Assembly (NCBI GenBank): GCA_018697195.1
Contig: CM031864.1
Coordinates: 22,257,943-22,321,942 of the forward strand
Origin: Certhia americana
Taxonomy: Eukaryota > Chordata > Aves > Passeriformes > Certhiidae
Direction: 5' to 3'
Length of the DNA: 64,000 bases
Shown here: in pieces, positions 14,664 through 53,448 of the stretch
How the letters are laid out: each line of letters begins with the position of its first letter
Position numbering within the stretch: position 1 is the first letter of the stretch
The notes under the pieces: model-generated
What the model was told of the DNA's origin: nothing
The model's database searches: none
Seen by the model: only the letters and a program-made list of their open reading frames with translations
Position numbers and translations under genes: made by a program

Positions 14664-17401
14664 TGAACTATCAATAGTTGTCCAGCCTTTATGAGCCACT
14701 CAAGGTACAGTAGCTCTATTGTTACCTGTTATTAGTCATCTCTTTTTCAGAGTGTTGAGTCTACATTTGTTTCTTGCATGGAAGCCCTTTTATGACTCTG
14801 AATATCCATAGAGTCCTTTTCTAAAACTTCTTTTCAATCTCTACTGTAGTCTGTCTCACTCAAGAGGAGAACTTCCTACCAGGCAACTTTGTTTTTTTTT
14901 TTCTTACTGCTGTTACACACTGAAAAAAAAAAAAATAGAAAAAACCTGATGCATATCGGATGTTTGCATTTTGGTTCATGGACTGTATAGGAGATGAAAA
15001 ATCTCATATCATATTAGATATTGTTGCAATACTGGTCTTTGTTTAGCAAATGATGTTTTGAATTCCAGGAAATGACCTTGTAAAAATGGAAGTAAGAAAA
15101 GGAAATTTGCTTGTGTTAGGCTGGGAAAATGAAGAAAGTTAGTGCAAACAAAGGGGAATGACAGAGGCTGAATCAGAGAAAGGTGGGGACTTTCACAGGA
15201 ATGTGTGGAGTGTGGGGAGAAGGTGCCTGACAGTTTTTCAGTCTAGTGATACCCACTTCCCAAATACTCAATAATCTTGTGAGTTCTACCAGAACTGATT
15301 TTTTTTTTTTTTAATTAAAAATCTCAGCAAGACCAAGCCCCCCTATTTGTACTTTGTATTGCTACTATTGTAGCAGAATACTACAGAGAAATCCAGGGTA
15401 CTTTAAGACAGACCATGTTTCATGTGTGACTGGACTTGAATGTCATAGAGTGCTGTAGGCAGCTGCTTGAAAGCCCCCAGCTTTTTGTCTGTGTTTTCAC
15501 CCTCCTCTTACTGGCTCCTCTGAACTGCCATTAAATAGTTCTTCCAAAGGGGCTGTTAGGATGTATGATTTTCTCTTCAGCAAGAAACGGTGATGGTGGT
15601 AAGTCACCAACAAAAGTGGTGAGGCAGAAATTAAATTCCCCGTTAACGTGGATGCTTTCAGGTTAATGGGATTAATGTTGGAGTAGAGAGAGGAGCTAAG
15701 GTTTAGGGCATTTGGAGTGCCTGGGAGTATATCAGTACAGAGAACTCCCTGCAGGATATCTTTGCCATGCACCACATCATTTTTGGTTGTAGGGTACACT
15801 TTTACTTTTGCAATACTCTGGTCCTCCTGCATGTGCTCGAATCCTAGATCTGTGTGAAACAGTGACACCCCCTATGACAGGTCGTGATGTTATAAGGAAG
15901 TACCCTGGACAGGTTGACTGACCTCCTTCTGGTGACAGGAGTCTTTGCAAAGTGAGGGAGTGGCAGTGACCACCCTGTTCACAACAGCCAAGAAGCTAAA
16001 AACCTACGCCTGTCCTTTATACGCAGCAGAACTCACATCTAATCCCAGTACGTTTCCATGAACTTTGGTTACTTCTCCTGGGCAGCAGCTTGCATCTGTG
16101 GCGTCCTCGCAAAAGCACAGACTGTCCCATAATCTGAAGTGTTTCCTGCCATAGGGTGAATGTGACTAATGCTTCTGCTGTTCTTCGACGCCTGGTAATG
16201 TATAGCTATGTGTCGGAAAATACTCTTATTTCCTGTTAGGAAGGAACACTTGGGCAAGTCTGAAAATAGATAAACAGCATCTAGCATGGGGCAATGAACG
16301 GGACTTTTTTCTTTGCATACCCTTATAGGCTCCCATTTCGCGCTGCTGGGAATGCTTCTTCATTTAACAAATGTGTGTCTGTGGCACTCCTGTGTCTCTA
16401 GGATCACTTGGCTGGAACTGCAGGAGGGCTGGAATGCCCCCTGCAGAGCCATTACGGCTGCCAAATGTGAATATGTACATTTTCATATGATTGTTTGTTT
16501 GATCCTTAGTATCCTTTACAGAGCCTACCACAAGTACGGAAATGTATCCCCTCGAAACCCAAAGAGCAGCTAGACAACCAAGCTCGAAGTGAAGGTTCAA
16601 AACTTTTTAGAAAAACAAGTACCTTGGTCCACTCTGACATGTTCCCTGCACCTCAGACCTTGGGCAGGTTGGCAAAGCCTTGGAAGACTAGTATGTCCAT
16701 CGGGATGCAAAAAAGGAAGGATATAGGACAATTCAGATTCACCCGAATTCCCAGATAGCAAGAAACTAATAAAGATCACTCAGCAAACTGTGCTGATTCC
16801 GCTCTGCACTGGTCGCGGGGGAGATCACGAACCACCCGCCTCATGCGGCTCACACCCAAGAAAAGTACTGAGCATGTAGATTACTTTAGTCACAAGAAGT
16901 GAGGAATCGTCACAAACAAAGATCGAATTCGGATAAAGTAATATAACCGCATATAACTTTCAGCCAATGAATCAAATAATTTTCGTCTAAAACGCATGAT
17001 GAGTTAAAATTTTGATAAATTGGCATTCGTCTTGATTTGGGAATACCACTCACGCACGGCCGGCCGTGCGCACCTCTGAGACAAACAATCAATATCTCTC
17101 TCGAAATGTGCTACTTATTGCTTTCGTTGCACCTGGCAACAGACGCGATTTTAGCTGCTAACAATCGCGCCTGCGGTTCCCGCAGACAAGGCCGACGCCC
17201 CTGCGGCAGCAGCTGCCGGCAGCCGCGGGGCCCCTCCCCGCCCGTGCGAAGCGCAGAGGCCTGCCCGCGCCGTTGCTCCGCGGTCCGCCGCCCCTGCCCG
17301 GCGGAGAGCGCGGAGCCGCCCGCCCCTGCCAGGCCGCGGTCCCGCCCCTGACCCTGCGGCAGAGCGCAGATGCAGTCCCGCCCGTCGCCCGCGGTCCGTG
17401 T
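14664..17401. repeat. Direct duplication, copy 1 (about 2.7 kb)
   Basis: This block starts TGAACTATCAATAG and is repeated head-to-tail from 17402. Shared landmarks in the same order include the GTTGAGTCTACATTTGTTTC stretch, TTTTGGTTCATGGACTGTAT, GTAGGCAGCTGCTTG and GTGGATGCTTTCAGG. Near the end both copies share GCTAACAATCGCGCCTGCGG (about 17155). Its last 240 bp are GC-rich and contain pieces of the ~50-bp minisatellite seen in full further right. The block ends abruptly at the junction 17401/17402. A 123-codon open frame on the minus strand (15868-15497) is not preserved in copy 2 and resembles no protein I know. Confidence 0.9.
17040..17401. repeat. Truncated duplicate of the DDX59 CpG-island edge and minisatellite
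   Basis: The GC-rich tail of duplication copy 1 carries CGCGGTCCCGCCCCTG-like and CGGCGGAGAGCGCGGAGCCG-like units that match the minisatellite at 19890-20215. It stops in the middle of a unit (...GCGGTCCGTG) and switches directly to the AT-rich start of copy 2. That is the pattern expected where either a duplication breakpoint or a failed assembly join falls inside a hard GC repeat. Confidence 0.75.
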
Positions 17402-19895
17402 TGAACTATCAATAGTGGTCCAGCCTGATGCACAACTCAAGGTTTACAGTAGCTCTATTGTTACCTGTTAGAGTTCAGTCTCTTTTGCAGAGTGTTGAGT
17501 CTACATTTGTTTCTGCATGGAATAGGCCCTTGGGCCTCTGGAATATCATAGAGCTTTTCTAACGTTCTTTTCAATCTATGACTGTAGTCTGTCCACTCAA
17601 GAGGAGAATTTCTACCAGGTAACTTGGGTTTTTTTTGTCTTAATTGTTACACACTGAAAAAAAAATAGAAAGAAATCCCTGAAACATATAGGAGGTTGCA
17701 TTTTGGTTCATGGACTGTATAGGAGATGAAAAATCCATATCATATTAGATAGGTTGCAATACTGGTCTTTGTTTAGCAAATGATGTTTTGAATTCAAGGA
17801 AATGACCCTGGTAAAATGGCACCGAGAAAAGGAAAGAATTTGGTTGTGTTAGGTGGGAAAATGAGAAAGTAGTGCAAACAAACGGGAATGACAGAGGCTG
17901 AATGGAGACAAGGTTGGGGACTTTAGCAGGAATGTGTGGAGTGTGGGAGAAGTTCCTGACAGTTTCAGTCTAGGGATGCCACTTCCCCAAATACGCAATA
18001 TCTTGTGGAGGTTCTACCAGAAAACTGATTTTTTTTTTTTAAATAAAAATCTCAGCAAGGACCATAGCCCCCTATTGTAATTTGATGCTATATGTGCAGA
18101 ATACTACAGAGAAATCCCAGTGACTTTAAGGACAGACATGTTCAAGTGTGACTGGACTTGAATGTCATTGAGTTGCTGTAGGCAGCTTGCTTGAAAGCAC
18201 CAGCTTTGTGTCCTGTGTTTTCACCCTCCTCTTACGGGCTCCTCTGGACTGGTCCTCTGGACGGCCATTAATGGTGCTTCAAAGGGGCTGTAGATGTATG
18301 ATTCTCTTTTAGCAAGAAGTGGTGATGGTGGTTAAGTCACCAACAAAAAGTTGGGAGGAAGAAATTAAATTCCCCGTCATGTGGATGCTTTCAGGTTAAG
18401 GGATAAGTTGCAGTAGAGGAGGAGATAAGTTTAGGGATTTGGAGTGCCGGAGTAATCAGACAGAGAACTCCCTGCCGGATATCTTCCAGCACCAATCATT
18501 TTGGTTGTAGGTATACTTTACTTTTGCAGATACTCTGGTCCTTTTTCCTGCATGTGCTGCGAACATGTATCTGTGTGAAAAACAGTGACACCCCCTATGA
18601 CAGGTCCTGATGTTATAAGGAAGTACCCTGGAAAGGTTTGACTGCCTCCTTCTGGTGACAGGAGTTTCTTTTGGCCCAAAGTGAGGGAGTGGCAGTGACA
18701 CCCTTGTTCACAACAGCCAAGGAGCAAAACCATCGGCACTTTGCAGCAGACTCACATCTAATCCAGTACTTTCCAGAATTGGGGTTTTCTGGGCAGCAGT
18801 GATCTGGGCTGTCTGCAAAGCACAGACTGTCCATAAGTCTGAAAGTGGTTCTGGCCCATAGTGAAATGGATAAATTCTGTGTTCTCAGACTTGTATGTAC
18901 AATAAGCTATGAGTGGGAAAATGCTGATTTACTGTTGAAAGTAACAACTTAGTCAATTGAAATAGATAAACAGCATTCATTAGCAGGTTGGGGCAATGAA
19001 CGACCTTTTTCTTGCATACCTTATGGCTCCATTTTCGTGCTGCTGGGAATGTTTTCTTCATTTACAAATGTGGGTCTGTTGGCATCTGGGCATCTGTGTC
19101 TGTAGGATCAACTTGGCGGAACTGCAGGAGGCTGGAATGACCCTTGCAGAGCCGTACGGCAAAATGTGGAATATGACAATTTTAATGTATGATTGTTGTT
19201 TGATCTTAGTATACTTTCAAGCCTAACAGCAAACAAGAAGGGGAAATGGAACCCCTGAAACAAAAGAGCAGCTACCAAACAAGCTCTAAGTGAGTTCAGG
19301 TGTAGAAAACAAAGTACTTGTCACAGCTTGACAGTTCCACTGACTCAGACCTATGGGAGTGTTGCAAGCCTTGGAAAGAAGGATGTTCTGATATGGAGCC
19401 AAAAAGGAAGGATTTATAGGAATGCAGGATTTCACAGAATTCCAAGATAAGAAGAAACAATAAAGACAACTCAGCAACTGTGCGGAGTCAGCTCGTGACT
19501 GGGTCTGCGGGGGAGATCCCGGACCACTGCCTCATGGCCCACAAAACCAAGGAAACGACGAGAAAATAGATTAATTAGAACAAGAGTGAGGGAAATCGTT
19601 TAACAACAGAAGAGGAATTCGATAATAAGGAGGAACCATGGAACTTGCAGACAATGAAACCACTAATGTCGTCTTGAAAGCGATGAATAGTTAAAAGTTT
19701 GATAAATTGGCATGCTTGATTGTGGATAACACCACGCACGCAGCTTGCGCAACTCGAGGACAAATAATATATCTCTCGATATGTGAATTATTGCCGTGTG
19801 CACCGGGCAACGAATGCGATTTTAGGCGGCTAACAATCGCGCCTGCGGTTACACGAGACAGGCGAAGACTGCGGCAAGCAGCTGCGCAGCCGCGG
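17402..19895. repeat. Direct duplication, copy 2 (about 2.5 kb, indel-rich)
   Basis: This is co-linear with copy 1 (14664 pairs with 17402; the GCTAACAATCGCGCC landmark recurs at 19828). The two differ by many one- to few-base insertions and deletions, often at short homopolymers, and by a local extra segment near 18240-18262 (CTCCTCTGGACTGG followed by TCCTCTGGAC). Substitutions are fewer than indels by eye. Copy 2 runs without a break into the full minisatellite and the DDX59 CpG island. No genes are recognisable. Confidence 0.9.
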
Positions 19896-20215
19896 TCCCG
19901 CCCCTCGCCCGGCGGGAGAGCGCTAGAGCCGCGCCCGGGCTCCGCGGTCCCGCCCCGGCCCGGAGGAGAAGAGGCGCGGAGCCGCACCGACCCGGGACGC
20001 CGGTTCCCGCCCCGCGGCGGAGAGCGCAGAGCGCCCGCACGGGCGCAGGTTTCCCGCCCCTGCCCGGCGGATGAGCGCGGAGACGCCCGCGGGCCCGCGG
20101 TCCCAGCCCACGCCCGGCGGAGAGGAGCGGAGCGCCCGGCCCGGGCGCGGTCCCGCCCCTGCCGCGGATGAGCGCAGAGCCGCCCGCCCCGGGCCGCGGT
20201 CCCGCCCGAGCCGCT
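19890..20215. repeat. GC-rich minisatellite, ~45-55-bp unit, about 7 copies
   Basis: Degenerate units begin CCGCGGTCCCGCCCC and continue GCCCGGCGGAGAGCGCGGAG, then CCGCCCG, repeated roughly seven times. Individual units vary by indels (GAGAG/GATGAG, CCCAGCC/CCCGCCC). Each unit carries CCGCCC/CCCGCCC boxes that could bind Sp1-family factors, so the array may be part of the promoter. GC richness leaves long open frames on both strands that do not look like protein. Confidence 0.85.
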
Positions 20216-20633
20216 GCCCTGCCCGCCGGGGGCCGGGCGGGAGCGCCCGCCCGCATTTTGTGCGGGGAGGCGGGCGCGGCCCGGCGGCAGCGGTTCGTGA
20301 GGCGGGCGGGGGGGGGAGCCGCCGGACTCCGCCTGCGGCGGGCGGGCGAGGTTGTCGGGCAGAAAAGGCTCCGCGCCGCATCGTCTCCCGTGGGGTGGGT
20401 GGCACTCTTGCGTGAGAGCAGGTTGGAGAGGCTGTCGTGCTGCGCGGGCCCCCTCCGAGCAGCGGTCTGTCAGCGCTGTACTCAGCGTGAGCGCTCCCTC
20501 GCATGCAGGGGTGCTGAGCGCAGAGAGGTTCTTGTGGGAGATGCTCCTTAGCGGCAAACATGAACGCACCTCCCCCGTGATCCGTGACTGCTGGGCCGGC
20601 AGCAGCGGCGGAGCAGGCGGGGCCTGCCCCGGG

Positions 20634-21052
20634 GAGCTCTGCTCTGCTCTCTGCTCTTGCTTCTCTGCATATCTGCCTTCTGCTCATGCTCTGCTCTCTG
20701 CTCTGCTCTCTGCTCTTGCGCTCTGCTCCCTGCCTTGCTCTGCATTCCCTATCTCTGCTCCTGCTCTCTGCTCTCTGCTCTCGGCTCTCGGACTCTCTGC
20801 TCCTGCTCTCTGCTCTCTGCTCTGCTCTCTGCTCTCTGCCCCTGCTCTCTGTCTGCTCCCTGCTCGCTAGCCTCCCCTGCTTCTCGTGCTCTATGCCTCT
20901 ATGCTCTCTGCCTCTGATCCCTGCTCTCGCTCTCTGCTCTTGCTCTATGCTCTCTGCTTCTTGCTCTTCGCTCCTGCCCTGCTCCTGCTCTCCGCTCTCC
21001 GCTATCCGCTCTCCGCTAGCGCTTCGCTCTACGCTCTCCGCTCTCCGCTCTG
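20634..21052. repeat. CTCTGCT heptanucleotide array (~420 bp)
   Basis: A long pyrimidine-biased run built from CTCTGCT/GCTCTCT with interspersed CTTG, CCTG and CTCCG variants. The right end drifts to CTCTCCG. The complementary strand has a continuous open frame rich in Ser, Arg, Glu and Gln (within 21167-19923), which follows from the repeat having no stop in that frame. The run sits in the DDX59 promoter region, just upstream of the proposed donor. Confidence 0.9.
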
Positions 21053-21964
21053 CCGCGGCCGCGGCTGCGCCCAGGTACACAAACACAGCTGTCTGCGCAC
21101 ACACATAGCTTCGTGTGTTTTTAAAAAACTCCCGTAAGAAGTTCGTAGAATCTGGTAGGCACAGCACAATTTGTTCAGAATAAAATTACCGTATTTTTTG
21201 TACTTTTTTACTGATAGTACGATAGCAAACGATTGGTGAGCATATCTGATGCTGTCAGAGACAAATACTGACAGTTTCAGAATATAAAAGGGGGTTATTT
21301 TTGAACACTTAATTTGGTTTGTATTATGGTGTATATTTGTCAAACTGATCGTGTTAAGTCTTTGCTTGTTTCTGGACACCATAAGCAAGCAGAGCAGGAC
21401 TCAATCTCAAACAAATCTCAAAAGTTTGCACACTTAAAATTATAAGCTGACTTAAAAAGAACAACAAAAGGAGTGACCTTGGATGGAACCTGTATTGAAT
21501 TTGACATTCTTTCCAAAACTGATTGTTTTATTAGGTTTAGGTTGGTTGGGTCTTCTTAGAAAAATGTTTGCATCTGTGGTTTCATCTTAGAAATGGGTGA
21601 ACTCTACAAGGATTTAAATATGACTGACTTGCAAAATGGATACATTTCCACACAGTAAAGCAAAGTGTTTTACTCAGCTGCAAAGACTTAATACTGACAA
21701 TTAACTGTAGATAGATCTCTATATTTGTTCCATGCTTCCACAGTTATTTTAAAATATTTCTTGACATCTACATCAACATTGTTACATTCAAGATAATTTT
21801 AAAACAGTGCTGATTCTAAATCTTTTCAGGGATTGAGAGGTGATTTCTGTGTTTGCCAGTATTTGCTAGACTTTTTTTAAATTTTTTTTTTTATTGTGGT
21901 AGCAGTAAAATGTACCCTTTTCAATAGTAATAGTTTCTAACAACTGTAACCATTTTCATTCTAG

Positions 21965-24900
21965 TGTACTGAAGCATGTTTTTACCACGATCTGTTAAAG
22001 TCAAGAGGACTGCTGATGAGGACAAAAGTTGTACAGCTAAGAAAAATAAACTGTCTTCTGGAGGATCTTTGCTAGAGGAGGCCACAGAGTTCCAGGACTG
22101 TAAGTCAGTTGGAACAGAAACTTCTGCTTCAACAGACAATTCAAGTGAAATTATACAAGAACACGCAGAACCTGCAGCTTCAGACCTTGGTGTTGCTAAT
22201 ATACCATCGGGAAAGGACAGCCAAAGTACTGAGGATGGTGGCTCTTTGGAAGAACCCATAAAATCCTTCAGCAAATCCCAGCGCTGGGCAGAGCCTGGAG
22301 AACCTGTGTGTGTTGTGTGTGGCCGCTACGGGGAGTATATCTGTGATAAAACAGATGAAGATGTTTGTAGTTTGGAATGTAAAGCCAAACACCTTCTGCA
22401 AATTCAAGCAAAGGAAAAGCAGCTAACATCTGATCAACCCACAGATTCTCAAGCAGAAGCTCACCTGCTGAACACACCTTATTTCTACAAAGATCATTCT
22501 TTTATTTTAGGTTTGCAAGATGAGCAGGTTGAGAATCTGAAACTCCAGCTGGGTATTGCTGTCCAGGGCCAGCAAGTTCCAAGACCTATTGTAGAGTTTG
22601 AACACTGTGGTTTTCCTGAAACTTTAAACAATAATTTAAAGAATTCTGGCTATGAAGTCCCAACTCCCATCCAAATGCAAATGATCCCTGTTGGACTATT
22701 AGGGAGGGATATTCTGGCTAGTGCTGACACAGGCTCTGGAAAAACAGCAGCTTTCCTGCTTCCTGTTATTATGAAGGTTTTGAAAGAGGTAATGAAACTT
22801 CAGATGGTTATAGAAAGAAGTTTGCAGCTTTGTCTGTTGGATTTCCAATGTAATGGAGAATGTGATTGCAGTGTTTTTCATTGACCTTCAGTGATTTGAC
22901 TTTTGATTGATCAAGCATTTGGTTCTTGAAGGGAGGAGGTGCTGATTATTTTTAATGCAATTGCATGTTTTTTCACTTTGGTCAGGAGATGAAGCAACTC
23001 TATCAATATTACCGATTGAACAGTTCTTGCTTGTTGAGAAAGTTAATTCAGTTCTTTGGTAAACTTCCTAAATGACTTAAAATAGAAAGTGAAAATAATT
23101 CCAGGCCCTCTGTAAGTTCTTCCTGTATCTTCATATATCAAATGGCTCAGAGAGATTTCTTGGAATTTGCATAACTTCACAGAGTAATTTCTCTTGGAAT
23201 ATGCTTGGTTGACTGTCAAATAATTGAAGAAATTTGGGGTAAAAAAATTTCTGAAATCCTCTAGTTGCACAGTCTCCACTTTTACAATGTGGGAAAAAGA
23301 ATTAAGAAAACTTCTGCTTTGTAAAGGCATGAAAGTATGATTAGAAGCAATGGCAAATAGTATTCTGTACCTTGTGTGTGGTTCAGAACTGTTTTTTGCT
23401 TTATGGGTTTTATTCAAAAAGAGAGGCATAAAAATATGTTAGAGAATTCTGGACAGGAGTCTAGTGATGCATTGCACTGTTTAGGTACATTTCTAGAATG
23501 TATATACACACCAATGTGTTTAAGCGTTTAAATGAATAATTGGAAGATTCTTTTAAGTAACTCTTTTATTCTTTGAAGTACTCTAGCAACTCCTAAACTC
23601 TACTTTAAGAATGAAAGCGTTATGTAGAAGTAGGTAAGAAAAGCTTTATACGCTCCAGTAGTTCCTCTGTCTGATTATCATTAAAGTCTGTGAGACAGAT
23701 AGATGTTTATAATTCAACAAATGTGCAATATTAGAGTCTCAATGAAAAATGCATCTGTACCCAATCTTTCCCATTCTTCATCTTCAGGGTACTTCAGGAT
23801 ACCACTTCAGGGTACAAGTTGATGTATATATGGAGAAGTAATTTTATTTTGCTGCGTAATATAATTCTCATTTTTAATGTAAGATTACTTTTTGAAAATT
23901 TGAAATTTGAAAGCCTTTTATCTAAATAATAAAGCAATTCTGCATTAATCAGGTTTTTCCTCTCCCTTCTAGACAGAAGCTCCTTCTGCTGTTATTTTGG
24001 CACCAACGAGGGAGTTGGCAATTCAGATCGAGAGGCAGGCAAAGGAGCTGATGGCCGGGTTACCCAACATGAGGACAGTTCTGCTGGTGGGGGGTCTGCC
24101 CCTGCCCCCGCAGCTGCACCGGCTCAAGCAGAGTGTGAAGGTGAGCACTGCCTGAGCTTGGAGAGCCACCCTGTCATCACATTCACAGAAAAGGAAAATG
24201 TGACTGGGGACACCTATGAACACACCAGGGTGGCTTTCTCTAAGGTGAAACATTTGTTACCTCCTGAAAATCTTAGTTACACAATTTTAAAGAAGCTTTT
24301 CCACTTCTGATTAAATATCTAATAGCTTTTTTTTGCTTTGTTTTTAAAAAGTTTCATGTGTGAGATTGCTGCTGTCAAAGACTGAAATATGCCAGTATTT
24401 TACACAAGGAGTTGAAATTGAGAGGAAGAAGTAGTTTGTTTAGAGACCTTCATTAGAGTTTTAAAAAGTTCATTTCCTCTTAGGGCTTCATAATTTAGAC
24501 TTTTTCTAGAAGTTTTCTGACTTACTTGAATGCAAGTAATTTCATGTATTACTGCCATTGTTATGTATGTGATGGAATTTTATGGTTTTTCTAGGATGGT
24601 CCTCTGTCCTTTCGTGGAATTTCTTACTCCTGTGGGCTTTTTTCCTCCTTATTTTTTTTTTTTTTCAGGTGATAATAGCAACACCTGGAAGACTTCTTGA
24701 GATTTTAAAGCAAAGTTCTGTTCAACTGCATGGCATAAAAATCGTAGTGGTGGATGAAGTAAGTTTTTATTTATCAGAACTCTATTACCTATGCAGAGTT
24801 CCTGGAAGAGTACAGTGGGTGGCTAATCTCACTTACTAAACATACAGAATGTTTGTTATAAAAATACAATGTATTTCTTAGGAGACAATTTTATTTTTTG

Positions 24901-27900
24901 ACACAATTTAAAGTGTGTTTAAACAACACATGTTCTATTGCTGTAAATGTTAAGGTAGCTGACAGGATAATACTGTTAAACCAGTGTGAACCATTTGTTT
25001 TTCATTTTCTCACTTAGCTTTTCTTCTGACTGTAAATACTCCTGCATTTGCATTGTTACATGTTACATTATGCATCTTCTGTCAGTTTAAGTTCAGGATC
25101 CTGCTGTTCATGGAAAAAATATGATACAAATCTAATATTTTTCATGTAGGTAGATACCATGCTAAAAATGGGTTTCCAGCAACAAGTGTTGGATATTTTG
25201 GAAGACATCTCTCATGATCATCAAACCATACTGGTGTCAGCCACAATTCCAGTGGGCATTGAGCACTTGGCAAATCAGCTTCTGCACAATTTTGTCAGAA
25301 TTACAATTGGAGAGAAGAATCTGCCGTGTTCCAATGTTCGGCAAATTATCTTGTGGGTAGAAGAACCATCTAAAAAGAAAAAACTATTTGAAATACTAAA
25401 CGTAAGTTTAATATTTTTCTCATAAAAACAATTTATAAAGTGATTCATGTCTTTCCACATCTCTGTCAGGTTCTCATCTCACAATCAGGAGAAATTGGAT
25501 CCATGCTGTTGATGAAAAGCCAATGGTTGTAATCCCTTTTTAAATAAACTGTTTAATTTTACAGGATAAGAAGCTCTTCAAGCCTCCAGTGTTGGTGTTT
25601 GTGGACTGTAAACTAGGAGCAGATCTGTTGAGTGATGCTGTTCATAAGATTACAGGATTGCAGTGCACAGCTATGCATTCTGAAAAATCTCAGGTGGAAA
25701 GAACAGACATACTACAGGTTTGTGCCTGCTCAAGTTAAGGGTGTTTTGGTAGATTTCAAATGGCCTTTTTCTAAAATGTGGCTTCTTTTAAATGACTGAA
25801 ATCATAATTGACTGCTTTTCTGCAGTAGTACCTGAGGTATTGCTGGGGGGGTGCATAAGAGACAGACAGGACTAAACGAAACTGTAGATAATAATCCTGT
25901 TCTAAATGTAGATAAATACAGAGACTGTTTCCCAGATTATTTGAAATGGGGATTTAAATAAGCATTTAGCTGTAGGTGATAATTTTTAGAATTAAAATTG
26001 TGGGTTTGATCTTTCTTTGGTTATCTCTCTGAATTATATTCCTGTTTAAATCAAGAATACAGGGAGCCATTCTCTCTTCTGCAATAGAATAATCCCACTG
26101 CATGTGTTTCTACACCAAATAACTAGCTGTTAACCTATGCTTGGAGAGGTTCAAAATACAAATAAGGAAAAAAAATTAATTTTGGTTTGTTCTTTCCTCA
26201 CCAGGGATTACTTCAAGAGAAGTATGAAGTTATAGTAAGTACTGGAGTCCTTGGACGAGGGCTTGACCTTGTCAATGTCAGACTGGTGGTGAATTTTGAT
26301 ATGCCTTCAAGTATGGATGAATATGTACACCAGGTGAATAAATAAATTGCTGATGCTTTATTTGAAAAGTACATTGAAATGTGACATTCACCTGTGGAAA
26401 TTTAAATGTAAACAGAAAGATCATTTTCCTCTTCAGAATTATTTTTTATAGGAAAGGAAAAATGGTTCTGGTTATCTCTTCTGAAAGTCTCTTATGTAAA
26501 TTACTCAAATCAGGAATTCCTGTTATCTCCTATGTAAGAGTGTCTTTAAATCCCTTACTTTTGCAGTGTTCTTCTTCCTGTTTTGTACTCTCTTATATCA
26601 TTTTGTGTCTATAGAAAACAAAGTTTACCAATTTTTTTTGTGTGAAGAAAGGCCAAATGCCCCTCTTGCAGGAGCAGCTCATCCGCAGTGTGGGATATGC
26701 ATTAATAATCTGGAAGTCAGTCATGAACTTGATTTATTCTCCTCTTTCTAGTCGAGCAACTCCTCTGGTATTTTTTTTTCTGTGGATTTCCTGCTTTAGC
26801 AAAGATGATCTGCGAGTTGCCCATGTGTGTTTATGTGCACAGTCCCCAGCCCTAGTTTAGCTGGCACAACAAGAGAACTCGTTCTTGTCCTCTTTGTGGT
26901 GTGAGGAGGACACAGTGCTACTGTGTGCAGTTCTGAGAACATCAACTGTGGGAAAAGGCAGCAAACTGGAGGGAGTCCAGGTGAAGTCAGGGGGCTGGCA
27001 CACGTGGCATTTCGGGACAGGCTGAGGCAACTGGGCTTGTTTGGGCTGCACTAGAGACTTAATTGCTCTCTTCCATTCGGGTGATTACAGAGCAGACAGA
27101 GCCAGACTCTCCTTGGAGGTGCCCAGGGAAAGGACAAGAGACAGCAGTTGTAACTCTCTGCAAAGGAAAGTGTGGCCTCATAGCAGGGAGAAGGGATTTT
27201 TTTGGCAGGAGGAGTCAGGCAGTGATGGGGCTTTTGTGCTTCAGACACTTGAAACAAGGCCCTGAGGGAACTGACCTGACTTTGAAGTAAACCTTGTTCT
27301 GAAAAGATGAGGAGGACTTCTGGACCTCTGGAAGTTATCTATTGTCATGAACTCCTCAAGTAGCCTATGTTATTAACTGCAGTATTCCCCTCTTGTTTTT
27401 AATTATCTTTCTGCTAAAGTTTCAAGCATGTAGTAAGTAAATAAAAATGGTTCTTCCTAGCATCCAAACTATACCAGTATTAACATGTTAGCTGTTCCTA
27501 AATAGAGGGTAGATTTGTAAATTTTTTTCTAATTTCTTCAGGCATTTTAGATAACATTGGTAAATAATTTAAAGTTACTAGGATGTTGAAAGTAAAGGGC
27601 ATTTTTGTGGCCATGCTGGCACATATTGTGCTTGATATCAAGTATAAGTATTTGGCATCTCTATAGTTTTTTAAGGCCTTTTGTTTGGATCAGATTTACT
27701 GTAAGCCTTTGCCTATCATCTGTACCTCATTTCTCAGTATCAATATTGGACTTCTAGTATGTCCCATAAATATCATAATTTTAAATGCATTTTAGCTACA
27801 GCTTCAGATCTACATATCCTGAATTCAGGAAGTTTATTGTAAGTATCTTTGTGCTTAGATGATGTGAGAGTTTTGGCCCTGTCACTTAGGTTTACCTGCT

Positions 27901-28253
27901 GTTTTGTAACAAAAACCCACAAACTTCTGAGACTATTTGAAGGACTTCAGTTTAGCATTCTAACTTAAAATGAATTTGTGCTTTTTCAGGTTGGAAGAGC
28001 AGGGAGATTGGGTCACAGTGGAACTGCAATTACTTTTATTAATAACAACAGCAAGAAGCTCTTTTGGGATGTTGTGAAGAGAGTGAAGCCCACAGGCACC
28101 ATTCTTCCCCCACAGCTGCTTAATTCCCCATATCTGCATGACCAGAAGAGAAGGGAACAACAGAGACTGAAACAGTTCCAGAATAGCCTTGTAACAGGAG
28201 ATAATATTATGGACATTGTTAAAAAACACAACAAAAATAATTCTCAGAGGTAA
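21965..28253 (+). CDS. DDX59: DDX59, zinc-finger HIT / DEAD-box RNA helicase, complete coding region
   Basis: Seven coding exons: 21976-22788 (exon begins 21965), 23973-24140, 24669-24758, 25150-25401, 25565-25717, 26205-26333 and 27990-28253. All are phase 0 with GT-AG introns and encode 622 aa (human protein about 619). Residues 112-135 form a zf-HIT-type cysteine cluster (C112, C115, C123, C131, C135). Helicase motifs follow in order: Q motif near 225-237 (GYEVPTPIQ), motif I ADTGSGKT 250-257, Ia PTRELA 282-287, Ib TPGR 332-335, II DEVD 356-359, III SAT 387-389, [11 protein letters not shown] 504-513 and VI HQVGRAGR 534-541. DDX59 is an ATP-dependent RNA helicase; human loss-of-function causes orofaciodigital syndrome with impaired Hedgehog signalling. 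Motif II has Val where the human protein has Ala. The ATG is the first in its exon, 11 bases after the acceptor. Confidence 0.97.
26915..27350 (+). mobile_element. CR1 LINE 3'-region fragment inside a DDX59 intron
   Basis: It carries the recognisable order of CR1 ORF2 C-terminal text: CTGTGTGCAGTTCTGAG, GAGGGAGTCCAGGTGAAG, GGACAGGCTGAGGCAACTGG, AGCCAGACTCTCCTTGGAGG and TGCCCAGGGAAAGGACAAGA. The frame is broken by indels. It lies in sense orientation in the last intron (26334-27989), between exons encoding helicase motifs V and VI. Edges are approximate. Confidence 0.7.
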
Positions 28254-28560
28254 TAAAGGCATATTTATAGGCAATTGTAACTACAATAAAAGGGTGATTA
28301 AAAATAAATATGAAATTTTGCGTTGTATATTGCATTTTTAAAAGAAATTTGTACAGTTTTTTAAGAAGTCTCCTTTTTATCTCATTTTTATTTTGAAATG
28401 CAGGGTATTGTGTACTTGAATTACTGTAGTACCTAGTAAAAGTACTCCAGAACCCTTTTTCAAAACCAGTAGTCCTTGCTGGCTAGAAGAAAAAAAATTA
28501 GTGGCTGATGAGCCTCTGAAAATTTCTTCCTGTTAACTTAAATAAAATCTTCCACTGGTA
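28254..28560 (+). terminator. DDX59: DDX59 3' UTR with candidate polyadenylation signals
   Basis: The stop codon TAA at 28251-28253 is followed by AATAAA at 28285-28290 and a second AATAAA at 28541-28546, with an overlapping TAATAAA at the stop itself. Which is used cannot be decided from sequence. Confidence 0.55.
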
Positions 28561-30030
28561 ATGTTTCTCCATGTCCTCAGTATGCTCTCTTGGGGTTGCT
28601 TAAGAACATATATGCAAATGTTGTTTATAAACAGTACTGAAAAATTAGTTTGTCCATTAGTGCCTGTAGACCAGCTGGAAGTTCTGCTGATGGACTTTGC
28701 AATACCAGAAATAATTTGTATTAGTATAACTTCATGGAAGAGAAATAAGATAAAACCTATAATTTTGATTTTATTGAATCAAAATGATGTCTTCTTTAAA
28801 GATGGAATTCCTTGGTTTTTCTGTCTCATTTGAAATAATCCACTCCTGCCTGTAAAATGTTTTTGTGTAACTCTCCTGCAGACCAGTTTGTATTTTACAA
28901 ACCACAAAGTTTTTATTTTACTAGTCATGTAACATAGTTTCCTGTCTCAAACTGGATTGACCAATAAATACACTGCTCTGAGATTTTGATACTTTCCTCA
29001 CAAGTTGTGAGCTATGAAAACTGTGTAGTCATGGGTAAATGGATGTGATTGCACGAAGTCTGAGAGTACTCTGAGAGCTACTACTTAAAATTGTAGCATT
29101 AAAGGAAACTTCTGTTGGAGCTGTGGCTAAATGATTTCTTCTACATCACTTGCTCTCATCTTGCTTTCCTTTTTTCCCCCTGACCATGCACTGCTGTTGT
29201 TAATGATATTGCAGCTTTTGAAGGATCAAAGGCAGGTGACTTCTTGTTGACTTGTAACCATGAATTAATTGCAAGTCTGCAATGAGCAGATACAAGAGGG
29301 AAAAAAATGCTTTCATATACTGATACTTATATAGAGCTTTCGAAAACACAAAAAACATTTACATGTAGAAAGACAGGGAGTATATTTTACAGAGTTGTTT
29401 TTTTTTTTTTGTACCCTAAAGTAGTATCTTTTGTTACTATGTGTCTCTGTACCAGAGAGAAACTAAAATAACATCCCAAAGATGCATTGATAGCCATCTT
29501 TAGTTACTAGTCCTGGTCCATACTGAGTTATTTATTGCATATCAAAATCCTGAAAATAAAACTTCTTTCCATGTTCACAGACCTCCTATTCAAGGTTAAC
29601 TTTGTTGTTCTATTGGAGTCTGTTAGCTGTGAAACACAAAGAGTGTAAATGTGAGTGAATGGAGACGTGATCTGGAATTGCCTTAATTTGGAAATCATGG
29701 TAGATCATTTGGAAGCAATATCTATGGTCATCTTTGTTGCTAAATAGTTAGATTGTTCTTTTTACCAACTGGTGCTTCTTTGCAATGCTTGATTTACTTT
29801 CTGAAACAAATCATAGAACTCAATAAATGAAGTCAAATAGCCTGTTGTTGGAAGCAGTCATTCCAATATAAAAGAATTATTTTTTTTAAATATTGGAGGT
29901 GAAACAGGTACTATTGTTCTTAATGTTTGGGAACACATACTGCAGTATATGTAAGGAGCTCCCCATGCAGCAAAACATAACTCACACTGCACATAAGCAT
30001 CATAAAAATTTTTTTGCTTTGTCTCCCCAG
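28561..30030 (+). other. DDX59-KIF14 intergenic DNA / KIF14 5' flank
   Basis: About 1.5 kb of AT-rich DNA with no CpG island and no protein-like open frame. At 30009-30030 a strong polypyrimidine tract ends in CCCCAG, so an exon beginning at 30031 is likely. That makes the KIF14 ATG exon a second exon, with an untranslated exon 1 somewhere upstream. A candidate donor (AACAG followed by GTACTA near 29910) exists but is unsupported. No obvious promoter was found. Confidence 0.45.
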
Positions 30031-33000
30031 ATTCCTTACAAAGCAGCAATTAGAAATAATCCTTTAGGAAAGGTGCTGTACTTGTCAACGTCTGGGTTTT
30101 AATTAGCTGGAAGACAAGATGCCTATTTATACAGTTCCTGCCAGGAGCCCTGCTGGGACACGATGCACAGCCACTTTGCAGAAACCTTCCTCACACGATA
30201 CCCTGGCCAGCAGTAAAGCATCTGGGCAGCAGCTGAAGTCACAGGTTTTGGGACAAAAGGATGGTCTGCCTTCATGTCCTCAGAATAAGGCTGAGGAAGT
30301 AAATCGGACCTATGTGATTTCAGCTTGTGGAGAAGTGAGTGATGTGTCAACTTCTTTTAAACTGGAAGGCAGATTAACACTCCAGAGGAGAACTGGAGCA
30401 AGCAAAAAATCGGTGTCTGATGACACAACACAGAGTAAAGAAGAGCTACAAACAGAGAAAAGACTTACTCTGCAGAGGCGTGTGAGGACTGGCTCCACAG
30501 AGAAGAGTAAAATTAATCAGAATATTGTGCCTAGAAAAGGAAATGATGACTGTGATGCACAAGGAAATGACAAGATTACACTTCCACAGAATATTAGGGG
30601 TACAGATGGTGTTAAGATAAACTTGAAGTTAACTGAGAGTCAGCCAAGTACCAAGTTGCAGCATAACCTGAACAGCAAAGATTCCTTTGGTTTAGTTGGT
30701 GGTGTCTGTGAAAATGCTATCAACAGGTGTTTAAAAGGTAAGATTAGCACTGCTGACACAAAGTTTCAAAATGAAGTTCCTAAATCGGAGCAGTTTGTTA
30801 CCTCAAAATGTACTAATAGCCTGTCAGGAGAGCAACTGAATGAAAAAGGGAATATAAATAAGCTAGTTGGAAAACATAAGGTACAGCACTTGATGATAAA
30901 ACACAGCAGCTTGGAAAGACCAAGAACACCAGCAAAAGCTTTAACAGAACGATTTAGACTTACACCAAAGAACAGCACTTCTCAAGATCAACCATCTCTC
31001 AAACTGGCCTCGAATGAACTAACGCCTCATGTGCAAATTTTAGCCAAGAAAATACCTAGTGTCTCCAGCTCTCTTCCTGTGACTGCAAGTTCAGAAACAG
31101 AAGTGACCACAGAAACCTTAGCTATGAGCACCAGTACTGGGGAAGATGTTTTCAAAGTGAAAAACAGCAAAGTGATTGTAGCTGTGAGGGTGCGGCCCTT
31201 CAGCAGCAGGTTTGTATCCTGGACTTATTTCTGGTGCTTGCAGTGTGTGTTGACTTCTACTTTGTACTTGTTATTTCATCATTGATCCTATAAGGATATA
31301 ATACATTCTTGGAAATTAGCTGACACTTCATGCAACTCCAAGATGGATTTTATTAAGAAACCGAATTGACTTTATTGGTGTTAGAGTCTATTTTTTACAC
31401 ATTCATTAACAGAAGTGTTTTGAATCTTAATACTTCGTATGTTCCTCAAATGGATATTTTTAGCAATGATCACTGATTTTTTCATTTCATTTATTAGGCA
31501 GTAAAATTACTAACTTAAAGCATGTCACTTATATTTTTTTCTTTTCCCACATTTTCTATTCAGAGAGAAAACTGAAAACTCGTTGCCTGTGATCTCCATG
31601 AGCGGTTCAGAGACAATTGTACGAAATCCATCCACAAACCAAGTTTACAGCTTCAGCTACGACTTCTCCTTCTGGTCTTTTGACAAGGATCATCCTAATT
31701 TTGCAGGCCAAGCAATGATTTATAAAACTTTGGCACTGCCACTACTCGAAAGAGCTTTTGAGGGATACAATGCTTGTCTTTTTGCTTATGGGCAGACTGG
31801 CTCTGGGAAGTCATACACGTAAGTTTCTAATAATAATTGTTAAAATTCTGCCAATTGGTATGCAGTGTTAAGTCATGAAAGAGATTGAATGGGACAGATT
31901 TCAGAGGGATTGAATTGTGTCAAAAGGTTGTGTATTTTAAAAATAATTAAACCAGTATTGATAGCAATTAAGCAAAATTTAACTTTGGAATATTTTTAGG
32001 TATGTGACCCTGACTTCTTTCTACTCTTAATGGAGAAAATAAAAACTTTTCAGAGATTTTAGTGAAGGAAAACCTTTATTAATGCAGAGAGCTTGTCAGA
32101 CTCTTCCTGTGCTGTTTTTCACCACTGTTTGTTATTTTGTGCATGAAGTGGCATAGTAAAGTATAGCATGTTTTTTGGAGAAGACATTTAAGAGATCATT
32201 ATAATTATGGTCCTTATGCTTCAGAACTTTAAATAAATCCAGATGCTTGTGGCACTGCTTACTTGAAACCAGATCTTTGCACAAAATAATTCCAGATAAG
32301 TAACATATTTAGGGTTTATAACCGATTGTGTATTCCTTATTTATATTTTGAAATAGAATGCCTAGTGAACTGTTTGGTTTCCAAACATACATCTATTAAA
32401 GTTAGTTTGAGTTTTATAGTTCCTATCAGTGTGCTATAGACTTTAATAAAGGTGGTTGAGGACCAGAAATATTTCTGTTCGATTTACAGTAAGTATAGAA
32501 CTTACACAGAATTAACTTCCATTTCAAGTGAGTGAACTTCCATTTTAAGTGGATGAACTCAGTTTTTACTTACACTGTTGTTTTTACCTTAGCCTAGAAG
32601 AAAGATAAACTCAGGGTTGCAACTGTTATCCTCTTTGTAGGTTTGTTGGGTTTTTGTTTGGATTTTTTTCTTTCACTTTTCACGATATAACTTACCTTCA
32701 TCCCTTTGCATTTTGAACAAGGCTGAAATTAGTATCAGGGTCCTCTGGTCAAGTTCACACAAGTTTCTGCTGTGCAGCCCTGGGTGTCTCTAGACTGCAG
32801 GTGTGTTAGTCAAGTGCACTGATGTGCTGCTGTGGCAGAACTCAACAGGAAACAACTGCACCAGAGCTGGAGACAGGTGGCACTGGAAGTGTGCAGAGAA
32901 TGTAAAATTCAAGCATGTTAAGATATTGATCATCTCTAGGTTTAGACTCTTCAGCTGCTGTAGAGTCTTTGTTTTACTTGGGTTTTCAGGCTATTTCTCA

Positions 33001-48000: not shown

Positions 48001-51000
48001 GAAGATATAAAGCTGAAAATACCTGAGTATTGTGTGTTAGGAACTCTTGCTGTACAGAAAGTGTGTATTCTTTGACCAGAGGTGCTTTCTGGCATCAGTT
48101 AAAGATGTGCCTTTGTTTCCCAGGGGTGTTCTTCAGATATATCCTCAATGGTAACAGAAGCATGGAGCAAAATAAACCAAACAGTAAAACAAACAATGAA
48201 ATACATAGGACACTGGGCAGTAGTCACAACAGCTGATATTTCATTTCCTGAAGAGAACAACATTCCTGCCTCTAGTCTACAGGTGAAGAAATGTTTCTTA
48301 GAAATACTGATTATGAATAGTAATTCTAGTGTTGAGGTCACACTATCAGTAACTATACTCAGGAGCAAATTGTTCCACTTCACCAACTGAATTAAGTATA
48401 TTTAGAGTTTATATAATACTTCAAATTTAGGATGTAAATGGATGTATTAATACTCTTGACTTTTTTTTTTCCTTAAAACCTACATCCTTTAAATCTGTAT
48501 AAGTTAAACCTATGAAGAGAAAGAAGCGTATGGTACTTGTAGGACTGTACCTGCACTGAGATTGTACAAGTCAGTCTGTTTCACTGAAATTCACTGCTTA
48601 TATTTTAGTAATCTGTGTCTTAATGCCACGTTGAATTTACAAAAATCTGAACTGAGCTCCTAAGGAAGTGGTCCAAGGAAGACACGTGTCTGAATAGACC
48701 TGCACTGAATGATTTGCTTGAAACAGAATTATTTTTAGTCTACTGTAGAAAATCTGTTAATTCAAGACCACATCAGTTTCTTTAACAATTGCATTTTGAC
48801 TTTTGTTTTAAAAGGAATTTGTACTTGCCATTTATAATGGAGTAGGCTCAGGACTGGAGTGTCTCATTGATACTGTACATGAGAAAGCAAGAATAGTACA
48901 AAAAGAACTTGTGAAACAATGTCCACAAAATGAGGTGAGATAAAATTAAGATTAAAAACTGCTGCTATATCTTGGAGACACTTGATCATGTTTGGGTTTT
49001 TGTGCTTGTAATTGTGAAGAAGATGATACTGTAGGGAGTTACACAAAATAGAGAATAAAGTATAAGGAATAAGCAACATAGTTAAAAATATTTCTTCAAC
49101 TGTTTGGAAATTCCAGTAGGGAAATTAGAGTACCCCTTAGAAACACACCACTTTCTAAGTGGGTAAGTCCTTTTGACAGACAGCAGCCTGGCTGAATTCC
49201 CAGAAAATACTTGGGAAAGACTGAAATCTTCTGAGTGATAACTTGTTCCTTTCAAGGAAACAAAAATTTCTTCCTACTCTGGTTTTCGCTGTTGTCATTC
49301 TTAATCCTTCAGATAGTAGTGAAATCATCCAACATATTTTATTTCAATACCTTTTGCTTAACTCCCAAATGCTTTGTGTTTCCAGCAAAAGGAATGGAAC
49401 ACTCTGCTTTCCAAATAATACTGTTTACTTGCAGCAAATTCTTAAGTATCTGCATGATTTCTGTACATGCTTGTCTCTGGTGCAACTACTGTGAAGATGG
49501 AAGGAAAACACCAGAGCTGCCCCTGCCACCTAGAATGATAGTGATGCAAAGTTACAGGACAACCTTTCTTTAAGAATAAGTGAATATTTAAGAATAAGTG
49601 AATATTTAAATATGTTCATTTGATCCTCCCATACTAAGGGGTTTAAAACCTTGCAGGTGTAATTAATGTTTTCTTCCAGGTAATATTTTCTTTGAAAGAT
49701 TGCATGTTTGGTTGCAGAAAATGTTATTATTTTTTTGAGTATTTCTGTCTTTAGTATGTCAGTGTTTGTTCTTTTTCTTTTAATGTACTTGGACTTGAAG
49801 TGTACTATATAATTAGAAGATTTTTTGTAGATTCAAAATCGAATAAAGGACAACGTGGTGGCATTAGCCAGATTCCTTGAAAATAGCATGTCTTACTGCA
49901 GAAAGGTAAGAGATGTTTCACAAAATGTGTGCTTTGAGTCTGATATTTAAATTGTAAGGATGCATTTATCTAAGAAGAGGAACATAAATGTATGTGTGTG
50001 TATGTATACATACCGTATATTTATGATTGCATGATAACACTTCCTGTCATATCATCATTCCTGTGCCTGGAATGCTAACTTTCCTTGCTACTGTGTTTAC
50101 ACTCAAAGCTCTTTTTTTTTTTTTTTTTAATTTTACTTAAGATAAAGAATTTCTGGACGTGCATATATCTTCCTATTTGTGTTCATCTTGAACAGGCTAA
50201 CTACCTGTTGTGGGTTTTTTTAAGTTGAAAGACTAGCTTTGCTAGTGTAATTGTTTCATAACTGCTGTTATAGTTTATGACCATAGTTACTGGTATTTTG
50301 AATTAAAAGCCAGAATAGGTGTTTTATCTTCTAAGAGCAACGCATTTTCTGGATTTTCTTGTTATTTGCTTTTTTTTTCCCTAACCCTGTGAACCACATG
50401 CACTTCTTTTCAGTGCTGTCTTATATGACATAGCATTGATTTGATTTTGTGTTTCAGCATTGGCTTGATCTATGTGACTGAAACCATAATAGGCATGTTT
50501 AGTAGTTAATATACTGTGATGTATTTGATTCTCTTTAAATTGCACTTTATTAATACAGAAAGAAACAGAATCTCATTTGCCAGAAGACTCTCTATATCGA
50601 GAAATAAAGAAGAGCACTAAGATTGCTGTGAAGTATTTGGAATTGGAGCAGTGCCTGACTGAAATCTGTCAAATTGTCTCTTCCATGTTACAAGGTATTT
50701 AGCTGAGTTACCACCTGTAACCTATGGGCTACAGGAGACTTGCAAAGCAGGGGAGAGGGCTCTTTGGTATCTGCAAAATGCTGCATTTGATTCTTCTTGT
50801 TTCTGTTTCTCATAGGGTTGTACAGAAACACCAGCCCTCTCAGGAGCTTTGCAGAAAATATTTCTGTCATTGCCGGATATTTTAACAACTATTTCAGTTT
50901 ATTTGCCTTGTCTTCTACAAACAGCCCTATCCAGAAAATGCATGTGCCTTTTATGAACCTGGATGAATTGGACTCTCTGGTTGATTCCCTTATTATGAAT

Positions 51001-51177: not shown

Positions 51178-52004
51178 AATGTTATTATCAAGAAATTAAA
51201 GAGAACTTTTTTGTATTGCAGGATATCACAAAAAGCTAAAATTTATTGCTAATATTAGTGAGTGAGTGGGGGGAAAGTAAAGTGCCATGTTTGTATAAGT
51301 ATCCTTATATTTCACCAAAGAAAAAAATACATTGCTTAAGAGGCTGTCAAGCTTCAAAATGTAATTCCTTTTATTTGAATAGTCTATTGCTACCTAAGTT
51401 TATAAGAAATAATTCGATTTTTAAAAATTTTTGCTTCACCTCAGCTGCATTATGATCTAGTAATGCTACTGCAACTTGAAAGTTTTTTTATGCCTTTTTT
51501 TAAATAAGCAAAAAACTTTGTATTTATTTATGTAGAGGAAAACATAATGGAAAAATTGGGAGCTAGTAAAAGTACTTTACAACCTTATTTGATGAATGCT
51601 TTATAAAGTGTTTTTTTAGTTTATTGAAGAATCTGGGCTTAAGGTATTGATAATGCTGTTCAAAGTGATCTGAAGTAAGTTTATGTTGGGTTTTTTGCTA
51701 GTGAGTTATCTTTTGATTGCTGAAATAATTCTCTCTCCTATTCATGTTGGAATAGAAGCATATCTGTTCCTAAATAACATACAAATTATCCCTGTTTGTA
51801 GAGAGCTTCCCAATCCACTACTTGCCTTTGCTTGTTATCGTTGTTTAATGTCTTACTTTTGTTCTGCTGTCTGAAGTTAACAGGAAGGATGGAAATTAAT
51901 TTGGATGGGTTTTAAGAGGCCTGGACTGAGCACAATTTATTCACAACAGTGCTGAGAAATTCATTAGGTAAAACCTTAGGTTTTTTCCTATACATCAGTG
52001 CATC
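51178..52004 (+). terminator. KIF14: KIF14 3' UTR and downstream flank
   Basis: AT-rich sequence follows the stop. An ATTAAA at 51195-51200 is the nearest polyadenylation-signal variant. No canonical AATAAA was found close by, so the 3' end is uncertain and may lie further right. No other gene-like feature is visible up to the ERV relic. Confidence 0.4.
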
Positions 52005-52700
52005 TGTCAAGGTTTAAGCCCAGCTGGAAATTAAGAACCACACAGCCACTCCCTTTCTCCTCCACCAATGGGGGTGAATCAGAAGGGTAAAAGTGAGAAA
52101 ATTCCAGGCTTGAAATATAGACAGTTTAGTAGGGAAAGCAAAAGCACACACAAGCAAAGCAAAGAAGAAATTAATTCATGGTCTTGCTCATGGGCTGCAG
52201 AGGAATCTCTGGTCCCATGCCTGGAACGTCTCCCCTGCTCCAGCATGGAGTTGTGGGTCCTGCCCACAGACTGCAGTTCCTCTTGAACTGCTCCAGTGGG
52301 GGTCCCTTCCACAGGGTGCAGTCCTTCAGGAGCAACCTGCTCCAGTTTGGGTCCCTCACTGAGTTACAAGTCCTGCTAACAAACTGTTCCACCATGGTCT
52401 CCTTTCTCCACCTGTTCACAGGTTCCTGCCAGGAGCCTACTCCATCATTGGCTCGCCCTGGCTTTTCCTCCATCAGGCCTACCTGTGCCAGTGTGGGCTT
52501 CTCCATGGGCTGCACGTCCATCTCTGCTCCCACATGGACCCATCCACAGGTCCCAGTCTCTGACTTGTGCTCACACTGGAGTTCCAGCATGTCCAGTACA
52601 GCAGCACAGAAACAGCAGCAATGCCCCTGTGCAGTCCCTGGGCATCACCACTGCTGTCCTCAAAATGTCCCCAAGCACAGCAGAGTGAGGGAATCAGCAG
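52005..52700 (-). mobile_element. ERV LTR-related segment with internal ~45-bp degenerate repeats
   Basis: Read on the plus strand it begins TGTCAAGGTTTAAGCCCAGC, and for about 180 bp it parallels the LTR that starts at 52882 (AACCACACAGCC, GGGTAAAAGTGAGAAAA, GACAGTTTAGTAGGGAAA). After about 52180 the two diverge. This one continues into degenerate repeats around GGGCTGCAG...TCTCTGCTCC and GGTCCTGCC...CTGCTCCAG (about 52185-52560). Such minisatellite-bearing LTR regions are common in bird ERVs. Short open frames here are not retroviral genes. The boundary at the right is uncertain. Confidence 0.6.
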
Positions 52701-52881
52701 CACAAGAGCAGGGAAAGCAAAAAGCAGCCGTAGATGAGCACTACACTAATGTTCTGTAAGGCATCAAGCCCAGGAATCTGCCCAAAGCAGCCAAAGAGCA
52801 GTAAAGGCTATAAATTCCATCTAACACATCTAACACATTATCTTGAAACTTCTGAGCCCCATGTTGGGCATCAAAAGGAAC
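52701..52881 (-). mobile_element. ERV internal remnant with decayed primer-binding site
   Basis: On the minus strand, just inside the LTR at 52882-53448, lies TGATGCCCAACATGGGGCTC. This matches the lysine-tRNA primer-binding site typical of class-II (ERVK, betaretrovirus-like) elements, with changes that look like CpG decay. About 150 bp of leader follows. No gag, pro, pol or env is visible; the interior is deleted. Confidence 0.65.
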
Positions 52882-53448
52882 TGTTGTGATTTAACCCCAG
52901 CTGGTAACTCAGCCTCACACAGCTGCATGCTCCCTGCCTTCCAGTGGGACTGGGGAGAGAAGTGGAAGGGTAAAAGTGAGAAAAATCATGGGTTGAGATA
53001 AAGACAATTTAATAGGGAAAATAAAAAATCACACATGCAAGCCAAACAAAACAAGAAATCAGTTCACTACTTTCTGTGACCACACAGGTGTTCAGCCATT
53101 CCCAGGAAAACAGGGCACATGTAATGGTTACTTGGGAAGACAAATGTCATCACTCCAAATGTTCCCCCATTTCTTTTTCTTCCCCTCTGTGTACTGAACA
53201 TGATGTCACATGGTTGGGAATGTCCCAGCTGTGTCCTCCTCCCTTCCCAAGCACCTCCAGCCTCTTCATCAGCATGGCAGTATAAGAAGCAGAAAAGGCT
53301 TTGGCTATTGTAACTTCCCCTCAGCAATTTAAAAAAAAATAAAAAAAAAAATCTCTGTTTTATCATTGTGTTCAGCACAAATCCAAACCATTGTCCTATA
53401 CAAGCCACCCTGAAAAAAATTAACACCACCTATGCCAAAACCAGCACA
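52882..53448 (-). mobile_element. Class-II (ERVK-like) LTR
   Basis: Bounded by TG at 52882 (TGTTGTGATTTAACCCCAGC) and CA at 53448 (CCAAAACCAGCACA), giving about 567 bp. The primer-binding-site relic next to the left edge shows that the element reads on the minus strand, so this is its 5' LTR. I recognise this type as common in songbird genomes, from memory and without a database search. An A-rich stretch at about 53330-53351 interrupts it. No clear 6-bp target duplication was found (TGCATC on the left of the whole relic, GCTTCC on the right). Confidence 0.7.

Follow-up and report, generated by a model that had tools for sequence, protein, structure and literature searches.

In the passages of Ko et al. 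(2022, PMC9516828) that deal with false duplications, those of the homotype class, a term of the Vertebrate Genomes Project (VGP), are attributed to read errors, and false duplications are described as able to share one scaffold, sometimes connected by incorrect gap filling. The gap filler PBJelly, as presented in the relevant part of a report on a bird-of-paradise (PMC7757076), extends ends over the gap length without bridging it; 236 gaps were overfilled in that bird, and the added sequence had a GC content above average. Moreover, in the portion of the DENTIST benchmark that gives fill identities (PMC8848313), PBJelly fills have 88.61-95.17% mean identity on simulated reads, and the fills of three gap closers other than DENTIST about 88-97%, for simulated reads of three genomes. 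Here we analyse a head-to-tail repeat of about 2.7 kb in a 64,000-nucleotide stretch of the Certhia americana genome (assembly GCA_018697195.1, contig CM031864.1, positions 22,257,943 to 22,321,942; hereafter the window), located upstream of a DDX59-type helicase gene. With a probability of about 0.95, as judged from the sequence, the repeat is a false (homotype) tandem duplication formed from noisy long-read ends, either by gap filling or by concatenation of contig ends. The true locus would then most likely hold one copy and be about 2738 bp shorter, and the repeat is in all likelihood no biological feature, the type of error being one already known.

Structure of the repeat and spectrum of its differences

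Comparison of the window with itself by BLASTN revealed a single long direct repeat, 14664-17370 against 17402-20030; the alignment has 2816 columns at 79.4% identity, 284 of them mismatched, and gaps are opened 185 times. The copies are co-linear, offset by 2738 bp and directly adjoining at 17401/17402: copy 1 occupies 14664-17228 and is followed by minisatellite up to 17401, and copy 2 occupies 17402-19897. An earlier note, made from the letters alone, had described a head-to-tail co-linear duplication with copy 1 ending inside a GC-rich minisatellite and copy 2 restarting in AT-rich sequence at 17402, and all of this is borne out, GC-rich minisatellite indeed adjoining AT-rich sequence at the junction. 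There is no N letter across the 64-kb window, and so none between the copies.

In a global alignment of 14664-17228 with 17402-19897, whose 173-base end gap was excluded from the counts, the copies differ by 170 substitutions and 240 insertion or deletion (indel) events, that is by 410 events in 2565 bp or about 16 per 100 bp; 154 of the indel events are missing in copy 2 and 86 are extra in it, and 174 of the 240 concern one base. The ratio of indels to substitutions is 1.4 by global alignment and 0.65 by BLAST scoring, where the alignment reached further into the minisatellite. The left and right parts of the repeat, divided at copy-1 position ~16004 as described below, each have more indel events than substitutions with all five global scoring schemes applied. 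The earlier note had held that the copies differ by frequent one-base indels rather than by substitutions, and had proposed to count both; the former statement stands, but the exclusion of substitutions does not, as 170 of them are present and the larger class depends on the scoring, being indels in the global alignment and mismatches in that of BLAST. For comparison, the variant counts given in PMC4136736 for 12 chicken breeds are 1,343,782 short indels against 13,708,560 single-nucleotide polymorphisms (SNPs), or about 0.1 per SNP, with 45.33% of the short indels being single-base. No scoring scheme applied to the present repeat approaches this ~0.1 indel per substitution of real variation.

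Over the whole global alignment the ratio of transitions to transversions (Ts:Tv) is 40:130 (0.31), and among isolated substitutions only it is 2:18. The left part, which spans 1340 bp of copy 1, has 66 substitutions and 97 indel events (1.47), copy 2 having 36 extra and 61 missing relative to copy 1, and a Ts:Tv of 18:48 (0.38); in the right part Ts:Tv is 22:82 (0.27), with 93 events missing and 49 extra in copy 2.

These values were compared with simulations, 60 for each of five read-noise settings and three neutral settings (180 neutral runs). The neutral settings were of our own choosing, with an indel ratio of 0.1 to 0.15 and two thirds transitions. Two of the read-noise settings use the PBSIM3 ratio of 22:45:33 and are the only ones independent of the present data, while the error ratio of the other three, 33:31:36, is that of the left part as observed here, and their agreement with it is therefore partly built in. 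The read-noise simulations gave indel-to-substitution ratios of 0.79-3.00 and Ts:Tv of 0.20-1.09, and the neutral simulations 0.03-0.35 and 1.10-4.50. The observed left part (1.47 and 0.38) falls within the former ranges and outside the latter; the differences between the copies resemble simulated read noise and not simulated neutral divergence.

Directional substitutions

With copy 1 as the reference, T>G is counted 39 times against 11 for G>T (p = 9e-5), and C>A 42 times against 11 for A>C (p = 2.2e-5), while the other four substitution pairs of this alignment have no significant direction. Since no direction is expected between two copies that evolve alike, the imbalance speaks against shared neutral divergence. 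T>G and C>A together exceed G>T and A>C together in both parts of the repeat under all five schemes, whether the input was forward, reverse-complemented or had the copies swapped; the p values range from 4.7e-4 to 1.7e-3 on the left and from 7.2e-7 to 5.2e-3 on the right, these runs being non-independent. The forward class counts 29 in the 1340 bp of the left part and 52 in the 1225 bp of the right part (44 with reverse-complemented input), whereas the reverse class hardly grows, from 9 to 13. An alignment on the minisatellite side has C>A 6 times and T>G 3 times with zero reverse cases, its columns being partly the same. If a second read of opposite orientation underlay the tail of copy 1, its errors, viewed from copy 2, would fall in the same class, and the forward class would therefore rise on the right; the right-part pattern fits a copy-1 tail whose noise comes from the opposite strand.

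In the two-colour single-molecule real-time (SMRT) chemistry of the PacBio Sequel, T and G share one colour and C and A the other. A literature search over titles and the first lines of abstracts found no published source for a PacBio substitution bias of the T>G/C>A type, nor one for the dye-pair link, and the platform is thus something that we infer. It is conceivable, though on balance doubtful, that the imbalance is a platform fingerprint, by which uncorrected single-molecule patches in finished assemblies, together with the orientation of their reads, could be exposed from two overlapping copies.

A change-point within copy 1

The difference rate is not uniform along the repeat. At copy-1 position ~16004 it rises from 12.2 to 20.2 events per 100 bp, about 1.7-fold, with a support range of 15934-16159 within 2 log units; the gain in likelihood was matched by none of 300 uniform simulations (change-points tried every 20 bp in the simulations and every 5 bp in the observed data). 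Such a rise is to be expected where a clean copy facing a noisy one on the left gives way to two noisy copies facing each other on the right.

Which copy is the clean one can be approached through CpG dinucleotides, which are rare in the flank, and through Markov models. In the left part copy 1 has 4 unshared CpG and copy 2 has 8, with 2 shared, all small numbers, and the ratio of observed to expected CpG (CpG o/e) in copy 1 is 0.11, like that of the flank. Over 16004-17150 the order is reversed, 23 unshared CpG in copy 1 against 9 in copy 2; CpG o/e is 0.48 in copy 1 and 0.24 in copy 2 over 16004-16600, and 0.75 against 0.55 over 16600-17000. For this polarisation the end of copy 1 past 17150, or past 17164 for the block scores, was excluded, as it runs into the GC-rich minisatellite. 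The Markov models, six in all, were trained on the remainder of the window, with t values taken over 100-bp blocks. In the left part copy 1 scores better than copy 2 (t 1.3 to 2.2), by 0.031 and 0.039 bits per base at orders 4 and 5; in the right part it scores worse in five of the six models (t -1.2 to -2.4; +0.1 in the remaining one), with differences of -0.059 and -0.057. As calibration, the mean advantage of a clean block over its noisy copy is 0.046 bits per base at order 4 and 0.054 at order 5, and two noisy copies differ by about 0.02 (standard deviation). The right-part scores are as if the tail of copy 1 were noisier than copy 2. A higher error rate confined to copy 2 in the right part was considered and set aside; it would lift the difference rate but not make copy 1 score worse. 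CpG counts and Markov scores together lend moderate support to a copy 1 that is clean up to ~16004 and noisy beyond it.

A possible origin and its alternatives

The sequence of events would probably be as follows. An accurate contig would have ended near 16004, perhaps because the GC-rich minisatellite and the CpG island upstream of DDX59 are hard to sequence or assemble. This left contig would have been extended rightwards over 16004-17401 by thinly covered long-read sequence, and a right contig, accurate from somewhere before 21.97 kb, would have been extended leftwards through the island to 17402, over about 2.7 kb of the same ground. The two extensions, which resemble oppositely oriented reads of a platform biased towards T-to-G and C-to-A errors, would then have been abutted at 17401/17402 instead of merged, both being too noisy for their overlap to be recognised.

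Several observations weigh against this account. BLAST scoring reverses the order of the two classes of difference, mismatches exceeding gap openings. In the left part insertions fall short of, and deletions exceed, those of simulated noise of the 22:45:33 kind put through the same aligner, where on average 54-66 are extra and 36-40 missing. The two simulations with two reads give Ts:Tv of 0.32-0.85 and 0.30-0.98, and the right-part value lies just under each of these ranges; missing and extra events are also lopsided there, where these simulations give about equal numbers; since the two-read simulations assumed unbiased substitutions, a biased platform could yield both features and uniform noise would not. 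Over the short stretch 17000-17150 it is copy 2 that has the higher CpG o/e, 1.50 against 1.31 in copy 1. The Markov polarisation is only moderate on either side, and the left-part advantage of copy 1 is at or just below the lowest of seven calibration blocks (0.032 and 0.038). Long A/T runs drop several bases in copy 2, a run of 13 A having become 9, and a loss of this kind is invisible to the count of one-base deletions discussed below. Finally, an extension of a gap from both sides normally leaves Ns, and there are none in the window.

The last point bears also on how the ends came together. Somewhat less than half of the probability given to a false duplication would go to the unpolished ends of two long-read contigs that were concatenated by a scaffolder or merger, with no gap filling involved. 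The same sequence is expected then, a noisy tail abutting a noisy head, and thinly covered contig ends often go unpolished; scaffolders, in turn, usually insert Ns. Otherwise concatenation and gap filling are indistinguishable by sequence alone. In both cases overlapping ends would have been joined unmerged, as the earlier note had proposed, and the difference spectrum, the directional substitutions, the change-point and the open coding frame just outside the repeat speak for this; its reading of the differences as the error signature of unpolished long reads and not of neutral divergence likewise finds support in the indel-to-substitution ratio, Ts:Tv, the simulations and the direction of the substitutions.

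Three further explanations involve two real sequences. Were the tandem duplication upstream of DDX59 real and old, its co-linear, precisely abutting copies would be accounted for, but it should have left a neutral spectrum, with transitions over transversions, few indels and no direction, and what is found is a Ts:Tv of 0.31, an indel-to-substitution ratio of 1.4 (0.65 by BLAST), T>G at 39:11 and C>A at 42:11, and a change-point inside the repeat; none of the 180 neutral simulations rose above 0.35 indels per substitution or fell below a Ts:Tv of 1.10, and we regard this explanation as extremely improbable. A heterotype false duplication, in which two haplotypes of one individual are laid end to end, has in its favour that Ko et al. 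(PMC9516828) name this class as the chief origin of false duplications. The three VGP assemblies tabulated there have a heterozygosity of 0.22-0.95%, and about 16 events per 100 bp is far above any such haplotype divergence; moreover, the indel-to-substitution ratio, Ts:Tv and the directional substitutions are unlike those of alleles, so that it deserves just as little credence. A genuine duplication in which one copy stayed unpolished, all short reads having mapped to its twin, would likewise pair a clean copy with a noisy one, but it leaves the apparent onset of noise in copy 1 near 16004 and its stop inside the minisatellite unexplained and thus requires two coincidences, which makes it very improbable as well. 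A false duplication by assembly is accordingly the reading that we retain.

As for the platform, only 8 of 116 one-base deletions fall within runs of at least 4, where 10.2% of the bases lie, so such deletions show no preference for long runs. PBSIM3, in its description of error models (PMC9713900), treats continuous long reads (CLR) of RS II and Sequel as free of homopolymer bias and Oxford Nanopore (ONT) reads as biased towards deletions, by which CLR is the better fit as these platforms are described there. The likeliest source is PacBio CLR sequence, partly corrected; that it was partly corrected is possible given a mix of insertions and deletions unlike that of raw CLR. ONT is less likely by the pattern of deletions in runs, the shortened run of 13 A weighing the other way. 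A single chimeric read was also considered and dropped: when a SMRTbell adapter is missed, the repeat comes out inverted, and the present one is direct.

Right flank, neighbouring genes and other features

The coordinates are collected in Table 1. Between neighbouring units of the minisatellite, substitutions number 7 and 5 and indels 13 and 9; the halves of the CTCTGCT array differ by 19 substitutions and 18 indels. The noise may thus continue through both to ~21.05 kb; as repeats vary by themselves, its right limit is not fixed.

Table 1. Features of the repeat and its right flank, in positions of the window
Feature	Position	Strand	Remarks
Copy 1, left part	14664..16004	+	judged clean contig sequence, left contig end; moderate
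Copy 1, right part	16004..17401	+	judged noisy rightward extension, ends within GC-rich minisatellite; moderate
Putative false join	17401..17402	.	GC-rich minisatellite against AT-rich start of copy 2, without Ns
Copy 2	17402..19897	+	probable noisy re-reading of 14664-17228
GC-rich minisatellite, ~50/104-bp unit	19890..20207	+	indels exceed substitutions between units; noise may continue
GC-rich island with CTCTGCT-type array	20208..21053	+	possibly within noisy fill
Open frame with DDX59-type coding exon (zf-HIT and start of DEAD)	21973..22881	+	clean control on the right

The last of these frames has 303 codons, with its two domains assigned by Pfam. About 7 indel events per 100 bp, the rate of copy 2, would put some 60 into it, so that the sequence must be clean by 21973. 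We take this gene to be DDX59, as the earlier note did, from the presence of zf-HIT and DEAD in one frame. Further along, the open frame 31514-31819 is a KIF14 motor exon, matching KIF14 chains in PDB with an E value of 6.8e-34, on which the name rests; 30107-31282 is also open among the frames listed. Of five frames submitted to Pfam, 27969-28250 and 30107-31282 had no match, and 25150-25422 matches DEAD below the family cut-off. A DDX59-type helicase and KIF14 thus stand in tandem on the + strand over 21973-31819. Downstream of the KIF14 motor exon there is an inverted repeat of 125 bp, 55435-55558 and 59593-59717, about 4 kb apart and with 99.2% identity and one gap, either a recent copy or a member of a young repeat family.

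Elsewhere in the window, 1-2000 is GC-rich (70% GC in the first kb and 59% in the second) and holds a TCTA/GTCTGTCTATCTATCCATCG microsatellite at 1814-1921. An isolated block of 51% GC at 52001-53000, between neighbours of 33% and 37.5%, has long open frames on both strands, and a perfect 18-bp tandem repeat, TTTAAGAATAAGTGAATA, lies at 49569-49609 in 2.3 copies with 100% match.

Implications and comparison with known systems

To sum up, the 5'-flanking DNA of DDX59 with its promoter-proximal part, from ~16.0 to perhaps 21.05 kb, is unfit as it stands for work on the promoter, the CpG island, the minisatellite or conservation, and the repeat should not be counted as a lineage-specific duplication. 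Moreover, the directional substitution test is a cheap check, needing no reads, for other suspected false duplications.

With the gap closers of the DENTIST benchmark the locus would have inserts of low identity in common, whereas that part of the benchmark concerns the identity of fills and not duplicated flanks. As to the two-sided extension and overfilling by PBJelly, no Ns remain here; the likeness would lie in GC-rich additions, again in a bird (PMC7757076). The homotype false duplication differs in that no N gap separates the copies here and in that the class is defined by read depth, where the difference spectrum is used in our analysis; by this spectrum, the locus is of the same kind, a duplicate that carries read errors rather than alleles or neutral divergence.

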